Source of the DNA: an uncultured Elusimicrobia bacterium
GTDB lineage: Bacteria; Elusimicrobiota; Elusimicrobia; UBA1565; UBA9628
DNA length: 56,993 nt
Assembly: GCA_903830945.1 (NCBI GenBank)
Contig: CAIKVT010000040.1
Location: 1-56,993 of the forward strand
Reading direction: 5' to 3'
The number at the start of each line of letters is the position of its first letter. The first letter of the stretch is position 1. This document shows, one piece after another, positions 20,022-38,809 of the stretch. Both the position numbers and the translations under genes were made by a program. A model generated the notes under the pieces. The model did no database searches and had not been told where the DNA came from. It saw nothing but the letters and a program-made list of their open reading frames with translations.

Positions 20022-20315
20022 CTATCGGATTATTTCATGGCGGGCGTCAATTATTTTTTGGAACTCAGGAGAGATGGCGTGCCAGTCCAGGATATCAACC
20101 CTGAAAGGGAGTGTGGATTCTTCAAAATCCATTTTCATGTTTCCCAACAGAGGGAAATCAATTTTTTTATCCGCACGCACAGCTAAATCCAGATCCGAGT
20201 AGCTCACGGAGGCCCCGGTTACGCGTGAACCAAAAGCCATTACCACCGCCCCGGGAACATGTTTTTGAAGTATTTTCTTTACAATCCCCAGCTCCCCGGT
20301 CTCAATGTCAAGCAT
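20022..20315 (-). CDS. MNT-type nucleotidyltransferase (antitoxin-like)
   Basis: 97 residues. The minimal nucleotidyltransferase motif is FGSRVTGASVSYSDLDLAV: G29-S30, then D41 and D43 as metal ligands (GSx10DxD). It overlaps the upstream HEPN gene by eight bases. In such pairs the MNT protein AMPylates or otherwise blocks the HEPN partner, acting as antitoxin (MntA/HepT type). This two-gene layout, HEPN first and MNT second, is a standard mobile-defence module. No promoter was resolved. Confidence 0.82.
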   Translation of the reverse strand: MLDIETGELGIVKKILQKHVPGAVVMAFGSRVTGASVSYSDLDLAVRADKKIDFPLLGNMKMDFEESTLPFRVDILDWHAISPEFQKIIDARHEIIR

Positions 20316-20727
20316 TGCGTCTCTCTAGCTCGATTAGGAATTTTTTTGCGTCGCCAAGAAACTCCTTGGAAACCTCAAAAATCTCATCCGCTTTAATAGG
20401 ATCGTATGTGTGGGAGGTGTCGTTGCGAGCCTGATGATATCCCATCCACCTGTCAACGTCCGCAATAAGGTGATTTTCTCTGACCATGCGGAAAAGCTCG
20501 CGCCTGGGAACCCCTTCCCCATAAGCTCGGCCGATGTTGATTTCCAGCCAGCGGCGCATATACTTCCAGCACAATTCATAGGTGAACTCGAAATTTTGTA
20601 TCACTCCGGCCTTGATAACCTTTTTCTCGGCTTCGCTGAACAGGGAAAATTTTGCTGATTCCACCACCTGTCGGGCGGCTTCAAGTGACAGAACGCCTTT
20701 TTTTATGCTGCTTAAATCCAAAGCCAT
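20308..20727 (-). CDS. HEPN-domain / nucleotidyltransferase substrate-binding protein (HI0074 family)
   Basis: 139 residues from the ATG at 20727, chosen for the AGGAGGG ribosome site directly upstream. It is all-helical. The HEPN catalytic motif Rx4H is present as RNDTSH (R101, H106), within the family segment YHQARNDTSHTYD. An upstream region FEFTYELCWKYMRRWLE is the usual HI0074-type helix. HEPN proteins of this group are candidate RNases kept silent by the MNT partner encoded just downstream, so the pair may be a toxin-antitoxin system. No other defence genes adjoin it. Confidence 0.82.
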   Translation of the reverse strand: MALDLSSIKKGVLSLEAARQVVESAKFSLFSEAEKKVIKAGVIQNFEFTYELCWKYMRRWLEINIGRAYGEGVPRRELFRMVRENHLIADVDRWMGYHQARNDTSHTYDPIKADEIFEVSKEFLGDAKKFLIELERRNA

Positions 20728-20771
20728 CAAGGCCCTCCTGAAATAGCCGCCAAACACCCTTCTACGCGCTA

Positions 20772-21460: not shown

Positions 21461-22732
21461 TCAATCGGGAGTGTTTTGTGGAGACTGCTGGGATGTCGGC
21501 GTCTGTGCGGAGCTGCCCGTATCGTTTTTCGGTGGGTTGGCAGCGTCGTGTTTGGGCTCAGGAGTAATTTGGCCTGGCTTGGTGGCTTTTGGACCTGGAT
21601 CAGGGAGGCCTTGGCGCGAAATCGGTGACTGCAAGGTCATGAACTGCATCATGGTTCTCTGGAACTTGGCCATCATGGCCGCCTGCTCTTTGCTCGAAAG
21701 ATTCTTGCCGCTTGCCATGTCGGTCTGCATTTGTTGCGCCAGGCTGGTCAGCGTCTTCATCGGTCGGGTTTGTTCTGGTGTCATGCCCTGGGTCAGCGCC
21801 GGGTTGTTGAGCAGGGCCATGACCGGGCCCATCAAATTCGACATGGACTGTTGGAGTGCCTGTCCTTGGGCCTGGAGCTGAGGCGTGCCGCCTTTGGGGT
21901 CATTCGGGGCCGGGCCGCCCGCTGGCGGGGTGAGCAGCTGCAGGCCGGAGAGGGTCGGCTGGGAGGAGCTTGATGGCGCCGTTATCCAGGTCGCCGGTGT
22001 CTGGTCCTGCGGCAGGCCGGGGTTGGCCCCTTCCATCCCACGTTCTAAAGGCAAGGACATCTGCTGGACTTGCTGCACTTGGCGACCGAGGTCTTGGGCC
22101 GTGGCCGCGGCGCTCTGCAGGGCAAAGGCCGGCTTGGACCAGTGGGCGAGCTGCTCGCGCAGCACCCATTGCCCGGCGATGCAGATGGTCGCCACCAGGT
22201 AGAATACGACGCCGGAACGCAGGGCTGGCGCGCGATGCAAGGTGCGAGCGGCGGCGGGCGCCAGGTAGGCCGCCAGAAGCGCCGGAAGCGCCCAGGCCCA
22301 GTCGAACCAATTCAGCAGGGCTTGCAGCGCGAGAAGGATGGAAAACATGGAGGTGGCTTGATAGCTGCGTTGGAAATCCCCCGTTCCACCCGAGAGCAGC
22401 ATGAACGATTGGAGCACTCCCGCCGCCAGGAAGCTCAATGGCACGGTGAGGATCGTGCCGGCCGCGGCCGCGATGGCCATCGTGCCCGGCGCAGCGTGCA
22501 GCAGTTCCGGCGCCGCGACGGCGGCGCGCAGGAGGGTCGCGATGCAGGCGGCCGTGCAAAAGACCAGCAGATTCGGGATCATGACCGCGTAGGACGGCGT
22601 CGGCCTGGCGGCGAGGTCGGCGAAGATGTTGCCGGCCCGCAATAGGGAACAGACCGTGTCTTCAAGCATGTGGCCTAGACCGTAGGGCTTTTGGGCCTCG
22701 GGCAGGCTTAGATCCGGCTGGTTCTCGTCCAT
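21461..22732 (-). CDS. Yip1-like multi-span membrane protein with long disordered C-terminal tail
   Basis: 423 residues. The N-terminal region resembles the Yip1/DUF1282 domain: an amphipathic stretch (DTVCSLLRAGNIFADLAARP) then about five hydrophobic helices up to residue 200. From about residue 205 onwards the chain is rich in Gln, Pro, Ser and Met, with a possible helical segment near 285-375, and looks extended into one compartment. The function is unknown. It starts 12 bases after the degenerate histidine kinase stop and runs into queD, so these three genes probably share a transcript. Confidence 0.62.
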   Translation of the reverse strand: MDENQPDLSLPEAQKPYGLGHMLEDTVCSLLRAGNIFADLAARPTPSYAVMIPNLLVFCTAACIATLLRAAVAAPELLHAAPGTMAIAAAAGTILTVPLSFLAAGVLQSFMLLSGGTGDFQRSYQATSMFSILLALQALLNWFDWAWALPALLAAYLAPAAARTLHRAPALRSGVVFYLVATICIAGQWVLREQLAHWSKPAFALQSAAATAQDLGRQVQQVQQMSLPLERGMEGANPGLPQDQTPATWITAPSSSSQPTLSGLQLLTPPAGGPAPNDPKGGTPQLQAQGQALQQSMSNLMGPVMALLNNPALTQGMTPEQTRPMKTLTSLAQQMQTDMASGKNLSSKEQAAMMAKFQRTMMQFMTLQSPISRQGLPDPGPKATKPGQITPEPKHDAANPPKNDTGSSAQTPTSQQSPQNTPD

Positions 22733-22744
22733 GTTTTATTCCCT

Positions 22745-23983
22745 TCAGACCTCGGCCCTGCGGCCCGCCCACGTGGACTCCGCGATGCGCACCACTGGAA
22801 GGTCTCCGTCCTCCGGCAGCGTGATGAGTGCGGTGGTCAGGCCTTGGCGGCTGCGGATATCGAGACTGCCGCCGGCGCGTTCGATCATCCGGCGAGACAT
22901 GGGCAGCCCCAAGCCCAGACCGGGACTGCCGGGTCGGGCGCTGTGGATCGGTTCGAAGACCTGCTCTGGAGTCAGGCCGCGCAGTCCCCCCCCGTCGTCG
23001 CTTACCATCAGGTGAAAGCGGTCATCGTGTCGGCGCAGCAGCACCGAGATCGTTCCTCCGTCCTGGGAGCTGCAGGACTCTAGGGCGTTTTGGAGGACTG
23101 AGAGCAGGATCAGGCGCAGGCTTCGGCGGTCGCCTCGGACCGAGGTCGGTTGCGGTGTAGGGGTGAGGCGTATATTAACGGGGCCGGTGGCGAAGGCCGC
23201 GCGCGCCTCCGCGATGGTCTCAGCGACGAGGCCGTTGAGGTCGAAGGATGAGTTCTCGCCGGCGGTTCGGCCCGTGATGAGCTCGGACTTGTCCCCCAAG
23301 AGCCGCCCGGCTTTCCCGTTAAGCTCGGAGACCAGGCGCTTGAGACGCTCGGCCCGCTTGGCGAGGGCGGGCTGATCTTTTGGGATGCTCAGAGCGAGCG
23401 CCTCGGCCGCGGCCGTGACCGAAATGAGGTATTCACGTAGCTGATAAAGGACTAAAGACAGGAATTCCGATATCTGTCCGGAGCGGAGGAAGTTGACGGT
23501 CTCGCGCGCCCGGCGCCCTGTGGCGGCGCGCAGCTCTTGGGCCTGCATGGCGACCGCCAGGGGCAGGAACACCAGGGCGGCGCTGCGCAGGACGAGGGAC
23601 GGGGCCCAAAGGTTTCCCCGGGCGTAGAACGCCTCCAGAATCGCCGCGCCGGCACCCAGTGTCGCGCCGGTGACAGGTCCTTCGGAGAGCCCTAGTAGGG
23701 CCGCCGGCAGCATGGCGAAGAGGAAAAGCTCCGTGCCCCAGAGGGCGGTCCAGTTGATGGCCCAGTAGCAGAGGGCAATGTCGCCCGTCAGCGCCAGCGT
23801 GCGGATTAATCGGCCCCAGCGCGGGAGGCGCTGCCAGCCGAGCGTGAAGGAGGCGATGGAAAGTGCGAGCCATGCCCCTAAAACGCAGAGGGGAGCATAG
23901 AGATTCACCGTCCGCGTATGGGGATAGCATAGCGCCGCGGTCAGGGCGGCCAAGTTCATGCCCCGTAGGAGAATCTCGCTCAT
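22745..23983 (-). CDS. Histidine-kinase-like membrane protein with a degenerate H-box
   Basis: 412 residues from the ATG at 23983; the open frame continues upstream without a ribosome site. Five or more hydrophobic segments fill residues 8-150. A DHp-like helix follows, but where kinases have the H-box (HExxxPL) this protein reads LYQLREYL: Y180 replaces the phosphoacceptor His, and the Glu and Pro are also changed. The ATPase part appears intact: N-box LLSVLQNALESC (N299), G1 VSDDGGGL (D329-G332) and GLGLGLPMSRRMIERAGG. It may therefore bind ATP but not autophosphorylate, and act as a regulator of another kinase. The codon TAT could arise from CAT by one transition. No response regulator lies nearby. 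Confidence 0.75.
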   Translation of the reverse strand: MSEILLRGMNLAALTAALCYPHTRTVNLYAPLCVLGAWLALSIASFTLGWQRLPRWGRLIRTLALTGDIALCYWAINWTALWGTELFLFAMLPAALLGLSEGPVTGATLGAGAAILEAFYARGNLWAPSLVLRSAALVFLPLAVAMQAQELRAATGRRARETVNFLRSGQISEFLSLVLYQLREYLISVTAAAEALALSIPKDQPALAKRAERLKRLVSELNGKAGRLLGDKSELITGRTAGENSSFDLNGLVAETIAEARAAFATGPVNIRLTPTPQPTSVRGDRRSLRLILLSVLQNALESCSSQDGGTISVLLRRHDDRFHLMVSDDGGGLRGLTPEQVFEPIHSARPGSPGLGLGLPMSRRMIERAGGSLDIRSRQGLTTALITLPEDGDLPVVRIAESTWAGRRAEV

Positions 23984-24119
23984 TGCGGTTCGGTCATGAA
24001 TCGGGAATCCGGCGCGGGGGAGCGCCGTCCTTGGAGGGCAATCATTCTCATTCCCCGGAAGGGACTTCCACATGCAAAGTATAGGAAAAAAGAAGTAAAC
24101 TTGAAACGGTGAATGATGT

Positions 24120-24180
24120 GGGGACACCATACTTAATCTTGGTTTTCCTATGGCGCTTCCTGAATTAAATATGGTGACAC
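24120..24180. repeat. REP-like palindromic repeat, copy A
   Basis: Left arm GGGGACACCATACTTAATC (24120-24138) and right arm GAATTAAATATGGTGACAC (24162-24180) are imperfect inverted repeats with a loop of about 23 bases. They match the arm consensus found at three other places in the window. It lies 11 bases before the start of the kinase at 24191 and is in the divergent gap between the two kinases, so it may affect their expression. Confidence 0.7.
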
Positions 24181-24190
24181 TGGGATTTTT

Positions 24191-25588
24191 ATGCGGTTGA
24201 GCGTCCGTCTCGCTCTGGTCTTCTTGTTGTTTGGTCTGGGCATCGCGGTCGGACTGCTGACCTATCATGTCCGCGTCATCCGTCGGGAGGCCTATTCCCG
24301 ATCCGAGATCATGGCGGCCAACACGCTGGCGGCTGTCCGGGCGTTGGTCTGCGCGCAGGCACGGGCTGGTCGGTATCATGAGCTAGACGCCAATCTCGCG
24401 GGCATGATCCGACAGGCCGGCATCGCGGCCGTCGAGGTGCGTGATCGTCGGGGCCGGCTCTTGCTGCGTCGTGTCGACGACCCTCGCTGGCTGGCCCGCC
24501 AGCCGCATCCCGGGGTCCCCATCCGCTTGGTCCCGGATGGGATTTACGATATTCAGACGGGCGTGTCCCTGGGCGGCCGCAGGCCGGGCACGGTTCTTTT
24601 GGGATTCCACACCGACGATCTGGAAGGTCGCCTGGCCGCTATCGCAGCGCGGGCCGTGCAGTGGGGTGTGACCGCCCTGTTGGGCGTCACAATCACGGCT
24701 TGGCTCATGGGGGCGTGGTTCGGCTGGCGTATCGAACGGCTGGTGCCACGTTTTGAGGCCTTGCCTAAGGACCCGGAGCGGTTCCGGCCCCTGCGCATCG
24801 ACGACACGGGCGACGAGGTGTCACGTTTGGTGGCTGCTTTCAACTGCTTGGGGGGCACCCTCAAGGAGGAGACGCGACGCCGGCGCGAACTGGAGTTGGA
24901 GAAGCGCGAACTCTCGGCGATGCTCGTGCACGACCTCAAGACCCCGCTGACCGTGGTGCGCGCCGGCGTCACTCTGCTGCGGGAACAGCTCGCTGATTTT
25001 AAGGCGGGGGCGGGCTGTAAGCGCACGATAGAGTTGCTGGATATGTCCACGGACCGTCTGCGCCGCATGGTCGATGACGTCCTGCAGCTGGCGCGCATGG
25101 AGGAGGTCGAGGGTTTGCGCGAGCAGCAGCCTGTGGACCTGGCGGCCATGGTCTTTGCAGCCGGGAATGATTTCGGCCTGATTGCTGCGGACCGCAAACA
25201 AGAACTCGTCGTCGACATCTCGGCCGGGGCCAACGCCATAGTCCTGGGCGACGCCGCCCTCCTGCGCCGAGTGCTCGATAACCTGGTGCACAACGCCGTC
25301 GAGCACACCCCGGCTCAAGGCTTGGTCGCCATCTCCGTGCGGGTTCAGGACGGCCAGGGGCGTGTGGATGTATCGGACGGGGGCCCGGGCATTCCGCCGG
25401 AGGCGCGGCCGGAGATCTTCAAGAAGTTTTTTCAGAAGGACATGAAGCGGCATGTGGGCAACGTGGGTCTGGGGTTGGCGCTCTGCCTCAAGGCGATCCA
25501 GCGGCATGGCGGCACGATCGGGGTCGAGGATGTCTTTCCTCATGGTGCCCGTTTTTACTTCAGCCTGCCTTTAATCAAGGGCAAGTAG
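24191..25588 (+). CDS. Membrane sensor histidine kinase
   Basis: 465 residues. Transmembrane helix 1 spans about 5-27, an extracytoplasmic sensor region runs about 30-155, transmembrane helix 2 about 158-178 and HAMP about 178-232. The DHp H-box is LVHDLKTPLTVV with the phosphoacceptor H247. The ATPase core has LLRRVLDNLVHNAVEH (N-box), VDVSDGGPGIPP (G1), KKFFQ (F-box) and VGLGLALCLKAIQRHGG (G2). It should phosphorylate a response regulator, but none is encoded within the window. It is divergent from the degenerate kinase at 22745-23983; the two may heterodimerise. Confidence 0.92.
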   Translation: MRLSVRLALVFLLFGLGIAVGLLTYHVRVIRREAYSRSEIMAANTLAAVRALVCAQARAGRYHELDANLAGMIRQAGIAAVEVRDRRGRLLLRRVDDPRWLARQPHPGVPIRLVPDGIYDIQTGVSLGGRRPGTVLLGFHTDDLEGRLAAIAARAVQWGVTALLGVTITAWLMGAWFGWRIERLVPRFEALPKDPERFRPLRIDDTGDEVSRLVAAFNCLGGTLKEETRRRRELELEKRELSAMLVHDLKTPLTVVRAGVTLLREQLADFKAGAGCKRTIELLDMSTDRLRRMVDDVLQLARMEEVEGLREQQPVDLAAMVFAAGNDFGLIAADRKQELVVDISAGANAIVLGDAALLRRVLDNLVHNAVEHTPAQGLVAISVRVQDGQGRVDVSDGGPGIPPEARPEIFKKFFQKDMKRHVGNVGLGLALCLKAIQRHGGTIGVEDVFPHGARFYFSLPLIKGK

Positions 25589-25608: not shown

Positions 25609-25766
25609 GCGGGGGCACCATGCTTGATTTTACCCTCGTGAGGCGGAACTTATTTCTTCCTCGATCGTATGTGTAGTGCGCGCCGAGGAAATCCTGGGCC
25701 GGAGCCTGCTCAGGAAGAAAACGGGGCCGCGGCCGAGGATCGCGGAATCAAGTAATGTGCCCCCGC
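25609..25766. repeat. Long palindromic repeat element, copy B, overlapping the 3' end of maf
   Basis: Left arm GCGGGGGCACCATGCTTGAT (25609-25628) and right arm ATCAAGTAATGTGCCCCCGC (25747-25766) are inverted repeats, 18 of 23 positions pairing if extended. They relate to the GGGGACAC...CTTAATT consensus of the other copies. The interior of about 110 bases has further short stems (TTCCTCG with CGAGGAA). The element fills the 159-base gap between the kinase and maf, and its right arm provides the last codons and the stop of maf. Confidence 0.65.
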
Positions 25767-26364: not shown

Positions 26365-26383
26365 GGATTAAGTATTGTGTCCC
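26365..26383. repeat. REP-like single arm, copy C, upstream of maf
   Basis: GGATTAAGTATTGTGTCCC matches the right arm of the copy at 38729-38792 in 18 of 19 bases. No partner arm is visible within 100 bases, so it is a solitary or decayed copy. It lies between cutA and the TTG start of maf. Confidence 0.7.
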
Positions 26384-37788: not shown

Positions 37789-38809
37789 TCTCAACCCGGT
37801 CGAGGAGTTCAGCGGAATAGAGCTTGCCGACCAGTTCCCGTCGAGCCTGGCGGCCCAAATCCTCATAGCGCCTCATGACTTCGGGCGCGGCCTTGGCGGA
37901 GAGGGTCAATCCCTGTTTTTGCAGGGCGGTCAGGGCATCCTCGTTTTCCTGACGCGAGAGGAGGTTGAGGCGCTTGAGGTGCCGGGAGCTGAGCTCAAGT
38001 AGGATATTGCGGTCGGCCTCGGGGATAGCGTCGAAGGCCTTGCGGGAAATAAGCACCGCGCCGATGGAGTCCGCGATCGGTACGTTGTAGATGAACTTGG
38101 TGCGGCGGAACCACTGCAAGGCGGTCACTCCCATGGGCGGGCCGTAGACGCCGTCGATCATGCCCGTTTCCAGAGAGGACATGACGTCCACGACGGAGAG
38201 CGGTCTGGGGGTCACACCGATGGCCTTGTAAGCGGCCTGGGCGATGGGGTCGCCCTCCCAGACCCACATTTTGGCTTTCCGCATGTCCTCTGGGGAGTCG
38301 ACGGGGGCGCGGCTGAACACGTAGATCCAGCCCAGTTCTGCCCAGCCCAGCAGGACGTAGCCGCCTTTTTCTATGGCGGCGTTCAGGTCCTTGGCGAAGG
38401 TCTGTCGGATGAAGTCCGCCTCTGTGTTGTCGCGGAAGAGCCACGGCGCGTCGAGGATGCGCACCTCTGGTGCGATCTGGCCGAGGCCTACGCCCGTGAA
38501 GCCGGCGGCCTGGATCTGTCCGATGCGGATCTTTTTGACTACATCTGTCTCGTCGCCTTGGACTCCGCCTGCGTAGAACTTGAACTTAACCCGTCCCGCG
38601 GTCTTGGCCTGGAGCTCTGCATTGAGGTCGTTCATGACCTTCATCCAGGTGGAGCCGTCCGGCGCCAAGGTCGCGAATTTTATGATGGCCGGATCAGCCG
38701 CCCGCGCCAAGCCGAAGAGGAGCAATAGGGGGACACAATACTTAATTCCTCGGCGAACCAAAGCCAGCAGGTGAATTAAGTATTGTGTCCCCGAATTAGA
38801 AGAGGTCAT
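37730..38809 (-). CDS. dctP: TRAP transporter periplasmic binding protein (DctP-like) with repeat-derived N-terminus
   Basis: 359 residues if it starts at the ATG complementary to 38807-38809, which overlaps the TatT gene by 14 bases. Mature motifs are IIKFATLAPDGSTWMKVMNDLNAELQAKTAGRVKFKFYAGGVQGDE, DAPWLFRD, and the ligand-lobe segment MIDGVYGPPMGVTALQWFRRTKF. It delivers an organic acid or related ligand to DctQM and TatT. Residues 7-27 are encoded by the repeat at 38729-38792. The positive n-region (R19, R20, K23) and the first part of the hydrophobic core (Y24-P27) come from the right-hand part of that hairpin. Cleavage is expected after A37 (LARA). A TTG at codon 17 could be the used start. 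Confidence 0.88.
   Translation of the reverse strand: MTSSNSGTQYLIHLLALVRRGIKYCVPLLLLFGLARAADPAIIKFATLAPDGSTWMKVMNDLNAELQAKTAGRVKFKFYAGGVQGDETDVVKKIRIGQIQAAGFTGVGLGQIAPEVRILDAPWLFRDNTEADFIRQTFAKDLNAAIEKGGYVLLGWAELGWIYVFSRAPVDSPEDMRKAKMWVWEGDPIAQAAYKAIGVTPRPLSVVDVMSSLETGMIDGVYGPPMGVTALQWFRRTKFIYNVPIADSIGAVLISRKAFDAIPEADRNILLELSSRHLKRLNLLSRQENEDALTALQKQGLTLSAKAAPEVMRRYEDLGRQARRELVGKLYSAELLDRVENALASRRGAPKGSGKTKKG
38729..38792. repeat. REP-like palindromic repeat, copy D (perfect arms)
   Basis: GGGGACACAATACTTAATTC (38729-38748) is the exact reverse complement of 38773-38792; the loop is 24 bases. The element lies inside the 5' end of the TRAP binding-protein gene, four bases after the TatT stop, and is read through as protein. 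It is the best preserved of four copies. Confidence 0.92.

Follow-up and report, generated by a model that had tools for sequence, protein, structure and literature searches.

The window analyzed here is a complete contig of 56,993 nucleotides from an uncultured Elusimicrobia bacterium. A gene on its minus strand (22745-23983) encodes a pseudo-histidine kinase of 412 amino acids, organized into a multi-transmembrane (TM) N-terminal sensor, a DHp domain without the phosphoacceptor His, a HATPase_c domain, and a conserved C-terminal tail. As originally predicted, this gene is divergent from a canonical kinase (24191-25588, plus strand; HisKA and HATPase_c domains, His247) across a short gap, which measures 207 bp and holds a palindromic repeat and a promoter-like element. 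Downstream, at a distance of 12 bp and in the same direction, lies a gene (21461-22732, minus strand) whose membrane-protein product has a weak Yip1-like domain; the Yip1 domain was matched in a relative at E 1.8e-5, below the Pfam cut-off. Further along, two adjoining small genes (20022-20757) may form a toxin-antitoxin pair; by eye, one resembles an MNT nucleotidyltransferase and the other a HEPN-like protein.

A histidine kinase fold without its phosphoacceptor

The H-box of the 22745-23983 protein reads LYQLREYL. Its core YQLREY (23429-23446, minus strand) belongs to a family motif, [FY]Q-x-R-[DE]-Y, and places Tyr180, encoded by TAT at 23446-23444, at the His site, in line with the original prediction of a Tyr in place of the His. 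The predicted loss of the conserved Glu and Pro was likewise borne out, with Gln at H+1 and Tyr at H+5. Three independent alignments (MAFFT with other kinases, a profile match to ZraS, and a profile-profile comparison with the nearest canonical kinases) align Tyr180 to the phosphoacceptor His, and the DHp contains no alternative His. In Pfam searches, HisKA (PF00512) is absent from the protein even at E<=1, and HATPase_c is matched at E 1.1e-14, above the gathering score. The ATP-binding motifs are intact, as had been noted from the sequence, and comprise the N box (N299), G1 (DDGGG), and G2 (GLGLGL). The open frame is full-length and keeps every residue that is invariant in the family.

An AlphaFold2 model, built on a shallow alignment of seven rows and with a mean pLDDT of 54.6, has membrane helices at the N-terminus, a pair of long helices for the DHp, the first of which carries Tyr180, and a CA domain that is folded with confidence. 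Of these parts, the CA domain can be relied on; the DHp and TM parts are of low confidence and never served as the sole basis of a claim. Foldseek matched the model to ZraS (E 4e-14), HK853, KinB, DivL, and RetS, and the protein has a profile match at E 6e-27. Model and profile together indicate that the protein has the histidine kinase fold, a DHp hairpin followed by a CA domain, with the DHp modeled at low confidence. Pfam matched no PAS domain in this protein or in the scanned family members, and the N-terminus is hydrophobic and, in the model, helical. Membership in the PilS group was considered and rejected: among the 22 members scanned, the 6TM_PilS domain (PF25323) came up in a single one, at E 0.33, far below the cut-off.

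An order-specific family with a replaced His

Whole-genome searches found orthologs in 25 of the 56 genomes of the order, distributed as 15/44 in f1 (the window's family), 8/8 in f2, and 2/4 in f3; some of the absences may reflect assembly gaps. Outside the order, no ortholog-like score was obtained in a phylum-wide sample of 295 genomes. The orthologs (E 1e-87 or better) are separated by a score gap from the next matches (about 1e-34), and ten kinases read out below this gap all carry His in the H-box. A scan of genome contigs for close relatives gave only ordinary kinases, with 24-33% identity.

The His site is occupied by Phe in 23 of the 25 extracted orthologs, encoded by TTT or TTC, and by Tyr in the other two, the window protein and its counterpart in genome G007. 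Thus, the alignment with homologues proposed along with the original prediction finds Phe or Tyr fixed at the site in 25/25 and His in none. The remark that TAT is one transition from CAT is correct as codon arithmetic but misleading as an evolutionary path; because Phe prevails among the orthologs, the site is not simply a CAT mutated to TAT, and a recent His-to-Tyr mutation was rejected on the prevalence of Phe and the lack of any His. The replacement motif, L[FY]Q-x-R-[DE]-Y, is near-invariant, and eight positions are invariant in all 25 orthologs: E173, Q181, R183, and Y185 in and around the motif, and T404, W405, R408, and R409, the TW and RR of the tail. Among the 22 family members scanned with Pfam, all match HATPase_c and none matches HisKA at E<=1. 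Some members have a degenerate G1 box, reading DDAGG or, in the case of G007, DDAGA. The G007 ortholog (L014 1516-2385) has no His residue in its entire length, and, therefore, an alternative His as conserved phosphoacceptor was rejected, as it was for the window protein from its DHp. Only one hydrophobic segment remains of the membrane domain in this ortholog, in which the DHp, CA domain, and tail are complete.

The conserved tail, LPVVRIAESTWAGRR (22757-22801, minus strand), follows the family pattern LPxxRxxxSTWAGRR. A degenerate DNA pattern for the STWAGRR core has one match in the 3.2-Mb genome, at the pseudokinase gene itself. In comparisons of close relatives, dN/dS amounts to about 0-0.09 over the 20 C-terminal residues, 0.05-0.28 in the DHp, and 0.19-0.48 in the TM region. 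Mean majority identity follows the same order, with the tail at 0.73, the DHp at 0.62, and the TM region lowest at 0.54. The low dN/dS of DHp and tail, together with the invariant residues, indicates that the family with its rebuilt H-box is maintained by selection and is not decaying. By the same comparisons, the replacement of the His is long established rather than recent, in a gene that is kept and not broken. So far as sequence can tell, no sign contrary to the original prediction (His in homologues, relaxed selection, or another His) has appeared, and the designation as a pseudokinase is strongly supported by the lack of His in 25/25 orthologs, the near-invariant replacement motif, purifying selection, and the absence of a conserved alternative His.

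The canonical kinases closest to the family among those found are L102, L104, and L106, from the same phylum; in a profile-profile comparison (E 4e-39), their alignment to the family covers 343 columns and extends across the TM domain. Their TM, DHp, and CA domains are all alignable to those of the pseudokinases; unlike the latter, they keep the His (H-boxes HRIKGPL, HQIKGPL, and HQVKHPL), match HisKA, and lack the STWAGRR tail. In a tree, the His-less family stands apart from all sampled canonical kinases, with an arbitrary deeper rooting. Canonical multi-TM HisKA kinases of this kind are likely the ancestral type, and since His is near-universal in the superfamily, we infer that the change ran from His to Phe/Tyr.

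Neighboring genes and the divergent gap

The divergent kinase at 24191-25588 is confined to f1, where 33 of 34 genomes have an ortholog; f2 and f3 genomes contain no ortholog, with best matches of 29-34% identity. In the same subset of 34 f1 genomes, a clear pseudokinase was found in seven, and an N-terminal fragment at a contig end in G003 (8/34 with any pseudokinase), so that 25 of the 33 genomes with the kinase have no detected pseudokinase. In several f1 genomes (G012, G014, G024, G027, G029, and G025), no more than 67-128 bp separate the kinase from the Yip1-like gene, and the pseudokinase is therefore truly gone; the losses look like clean deletions. Repeated loss indicates that the function of the pseudokinase is dispensable in f1. 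In f2 and f3, the pseudokinase comes after maf in a housekeeping cluster, yggS-yggU-mtnA-cutA-maf (names by inspection and synteny), and a kinase between maf and pseudokinase is seen in f1 only, which argues that the adjacency reflects a shared conserved locus.

These distributions bear on the original suggestion that the pseudokinase may modulate the divergent kinase, in the model considered here by dimerizing with it and tuning its activity. Heterodimeric control has precedents in ChrS/HrrS (PMC9491836) and RocA/CovS (PMC7028121), and in f1 the two genes are divergently adjacent wherever one contig carries both. However, each gene is distributed independently of the other, the kinase alone in most f1 genomes and the pseudokinase alone, after maf, in f2 and f3, and both conserved motifs, in DHp and tail, occur just as well in genomes that have no ortholog of the kinase. 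An obligate pairing was rejected on these grounds, and we regard a tuning of the adjoining kinase as unlikely. As judged from phylogenetic distribution, the pseudokinase did not evolve as partner of this kinase, and the kinase is not an obligate partner of the pseudokinase.

None of the 76 receiver-domain matches of the genome lies on the 57-kb contig. A nearby response regulator, already noted as absent in the original prediction, was thus rejected for the whole contig. The divergent kinase is an orphan in this sense, yet occupies the same locus in nearly all f1 genomes examined, and this retention suggests that it probably serves a conserved function in its own right. The most consistent neighbor of the pseudokinase is the Yip1-like membrane gene, which accompanies it across the order. 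In several f1 relatives, a small gene of ~160-180 amino acids (L047 3055-3525, L057 2997-3494) separates the kinase from the gene that follows; it encodes the cysteine motifs CGYCGH and CxHCEQ and matches no Pfam family over the cut-off. The window seems to have lost this gene, whose 5' end remains upstream of the pseudokinase.

The palindrome noted in the gap is present, as an inverted repeat with 13-nt arms (24125-24137 and 24164-24176), but it is not an element special to the gene pair. It belongs to a REP-like dispersed repeat (24125-24176, without strand), the arm of which has 12 matches in the genome, six of them in the window, with 0 expected, and it is absent from the equivalent gap in G001 and G004. 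A role as shared operator was rejected because the repeat is dispersed. Copies of the palindromic repeat, GGGACACCATACTTAATT, occur in the window at 24121-24180, 25612-25629, 26366-26383, and 38730-38791, and intergenic sequences of relatives include a fragment similar to a REP-associated transposase (HHVMARGN ... NHVHLLVR). The gap also contains a promoter-like element, TTTCAA-17-TATACT (24078-24106, minus strand), conserved by eye. A similar TATACT element lies in the same place upstream of the pseudokinase in other f1 genomes, and in some f1 genomes lacking the pseudokinase it precedes the next gene instead. A stringent sigma-70 scan reported no consensus promoter, and TTTCAA-17-TATACT falls below its threshold.

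Proposed function of the pseudokinase

HisKA kinases autophosphorylate on His, use an acidic residue at H+1 for base catalysis, and exert phosphatase activity via H+4. All three catalytic positions are replaced in the family. By alignment, the path from a canonical multi-TM HisKA kinase would have led from the phosphoacceptor His to Phe/Tyr, from the catalytic Glu at H+1 to Gln, at H+4, the phosphatase position, to an acidic residue, and at H+5 from the helix-kinking Pro to Tyr. Extrapolating from HisKA biochemistry, these changes would leave a protein that most likely performs no phosphotransfer and may act as a conformational switch. The ATP-binding fold is retained, as the sequence shows, and ATP itself may still be bound. 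A signal reaching the membrane domain, a nucleotide bound by the CA domain, or both could alter how the DHp surface and the tail are presented to a protein partner, with the C-terminal tail as a putative docking peptide. We thus favor, with a probability of roughly 0.6, an order-specific, anciently fixed membrane sensor pseudo-histidine kinase that would carry out no phosphotransfer and would work by regulated protein binding, in the manner of DivL.

In Caulobacter DivL, Tyr550 occupies the His site and is fixed in nearly all orthologs, and kinase or phosphatase activity is not needed (PMC4211667). DivL binds DivK~P via the docking face of its DHp, for which R553 at H+3 is required, and a Y550F variant is still selective for DivK~P (PMC4211667). 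The family resembles DivL (PDB 4q20) in the DHp and CA fold, the aromatic residue at the His site, and the Arg at H+3, which is invariant in the family. Unlike the family, DivL has PAS domains and a partnership with DivK and CckA; the family, in turn, differs in its multi-TM N-terminus, a site that is mostly Phe, Gln at H+1, Tyr at H+5, and a unique C-terminal tail. The profile match to DivL (E 3.5e-14) and the Foldseek match are no closer than those to ordinary kinases. Homology of the family to DivL extends no further than the kinase superfamily. A more detailed version, in which the transmitter was rebuilt as a receptor that binds a receiver or some other protein through its F/Y-Q-x-R-D/E-Y face, the STWAGRR tail being a second docking peptide and output passing via the Yip1-like protein without phosphotransfer, is tentative and, as a whole, somewhat improbable.

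RocA of group A Streptococcus, a six-TM pseudokinase acting on CovS, offers a different model, and its TM half suffices if overexpressed (PMC6193603, PMC7028121). Rather than phosphorylating, it modulates another system (PMC7028121, PMC6193603). By analogy, the membrane domain of the family might bind and modulate a sensor kinase from another locus, and the cytoplasmic part would be a relic. The described layout of RocA, six TM segments, DHp, and a HATPase-like domain (PMC6193603), resembles the multi-TM, DHp, and HATPase layout seen in the family, and the genome is rich in kinases, with 33 matching places. However, RocA still has a His in the DHp, the dispensable H246, combines it with a degenerate CA domain, and exerts its effect through the TM domains, whereas the family retains the CA domain and has its conserved parts in the DHp motif and tail. 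The membrane part, expected to be the most constrained, is the least conserved and nearly absent in G007, where DHp, CA, and tail persist whole, which speaks indirectly against a function borne by the TM domain. A DivL-like binding switch is therefore favored, and an accessory of the RocA kind appears quite unlikely. Other kinase-fold proteins are reported to act on another kinase via heterodimers, such as the evolved pseudokinase ChrS (PMC9491836) and, as cited in PMC12675982, RetS. Both differ from the family in domain make-up and in having specific known target kinases, and in ChrS it is the CA domain that is broken, not the His site.

It is improbable, too, that the protein has remained an enzyme, with an ATPase activity or with a kinase activity toward another residue or protein. 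Ser is the target of GHKL kinases like SpoIIAB, and the N, G1, and G2 boxes are retained in most members, with the HATPase_c match of the window protein over the gathering score; however, Phe at the site in 23/25 orthologs excludes a conserved phospho-Tyr there, the H+1 catalytic acid is Gln in all, and G1 is degenerate in some members. Decay of the gene in the window's lineage, to which the frequent losses in f1 might point, is highly improbable in view of the full-length frame, the retained invariant residues, the seemingly clean deletions, and the strong purifying selection in close relatives.

Experimentally supported natural bacterial pseudo-histidine kinases are few, comprising DivL, RocA, and some others. 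An order-wide pseudokinase whose H-box is rebuilt, whose C-terminal tail is new and invariant, and which is under purifying selection would add an independent case of a kinase core working without phosphotransfer. The family also names residues for mutation, and relatives with clean loss of the gene may serve as natural controls.
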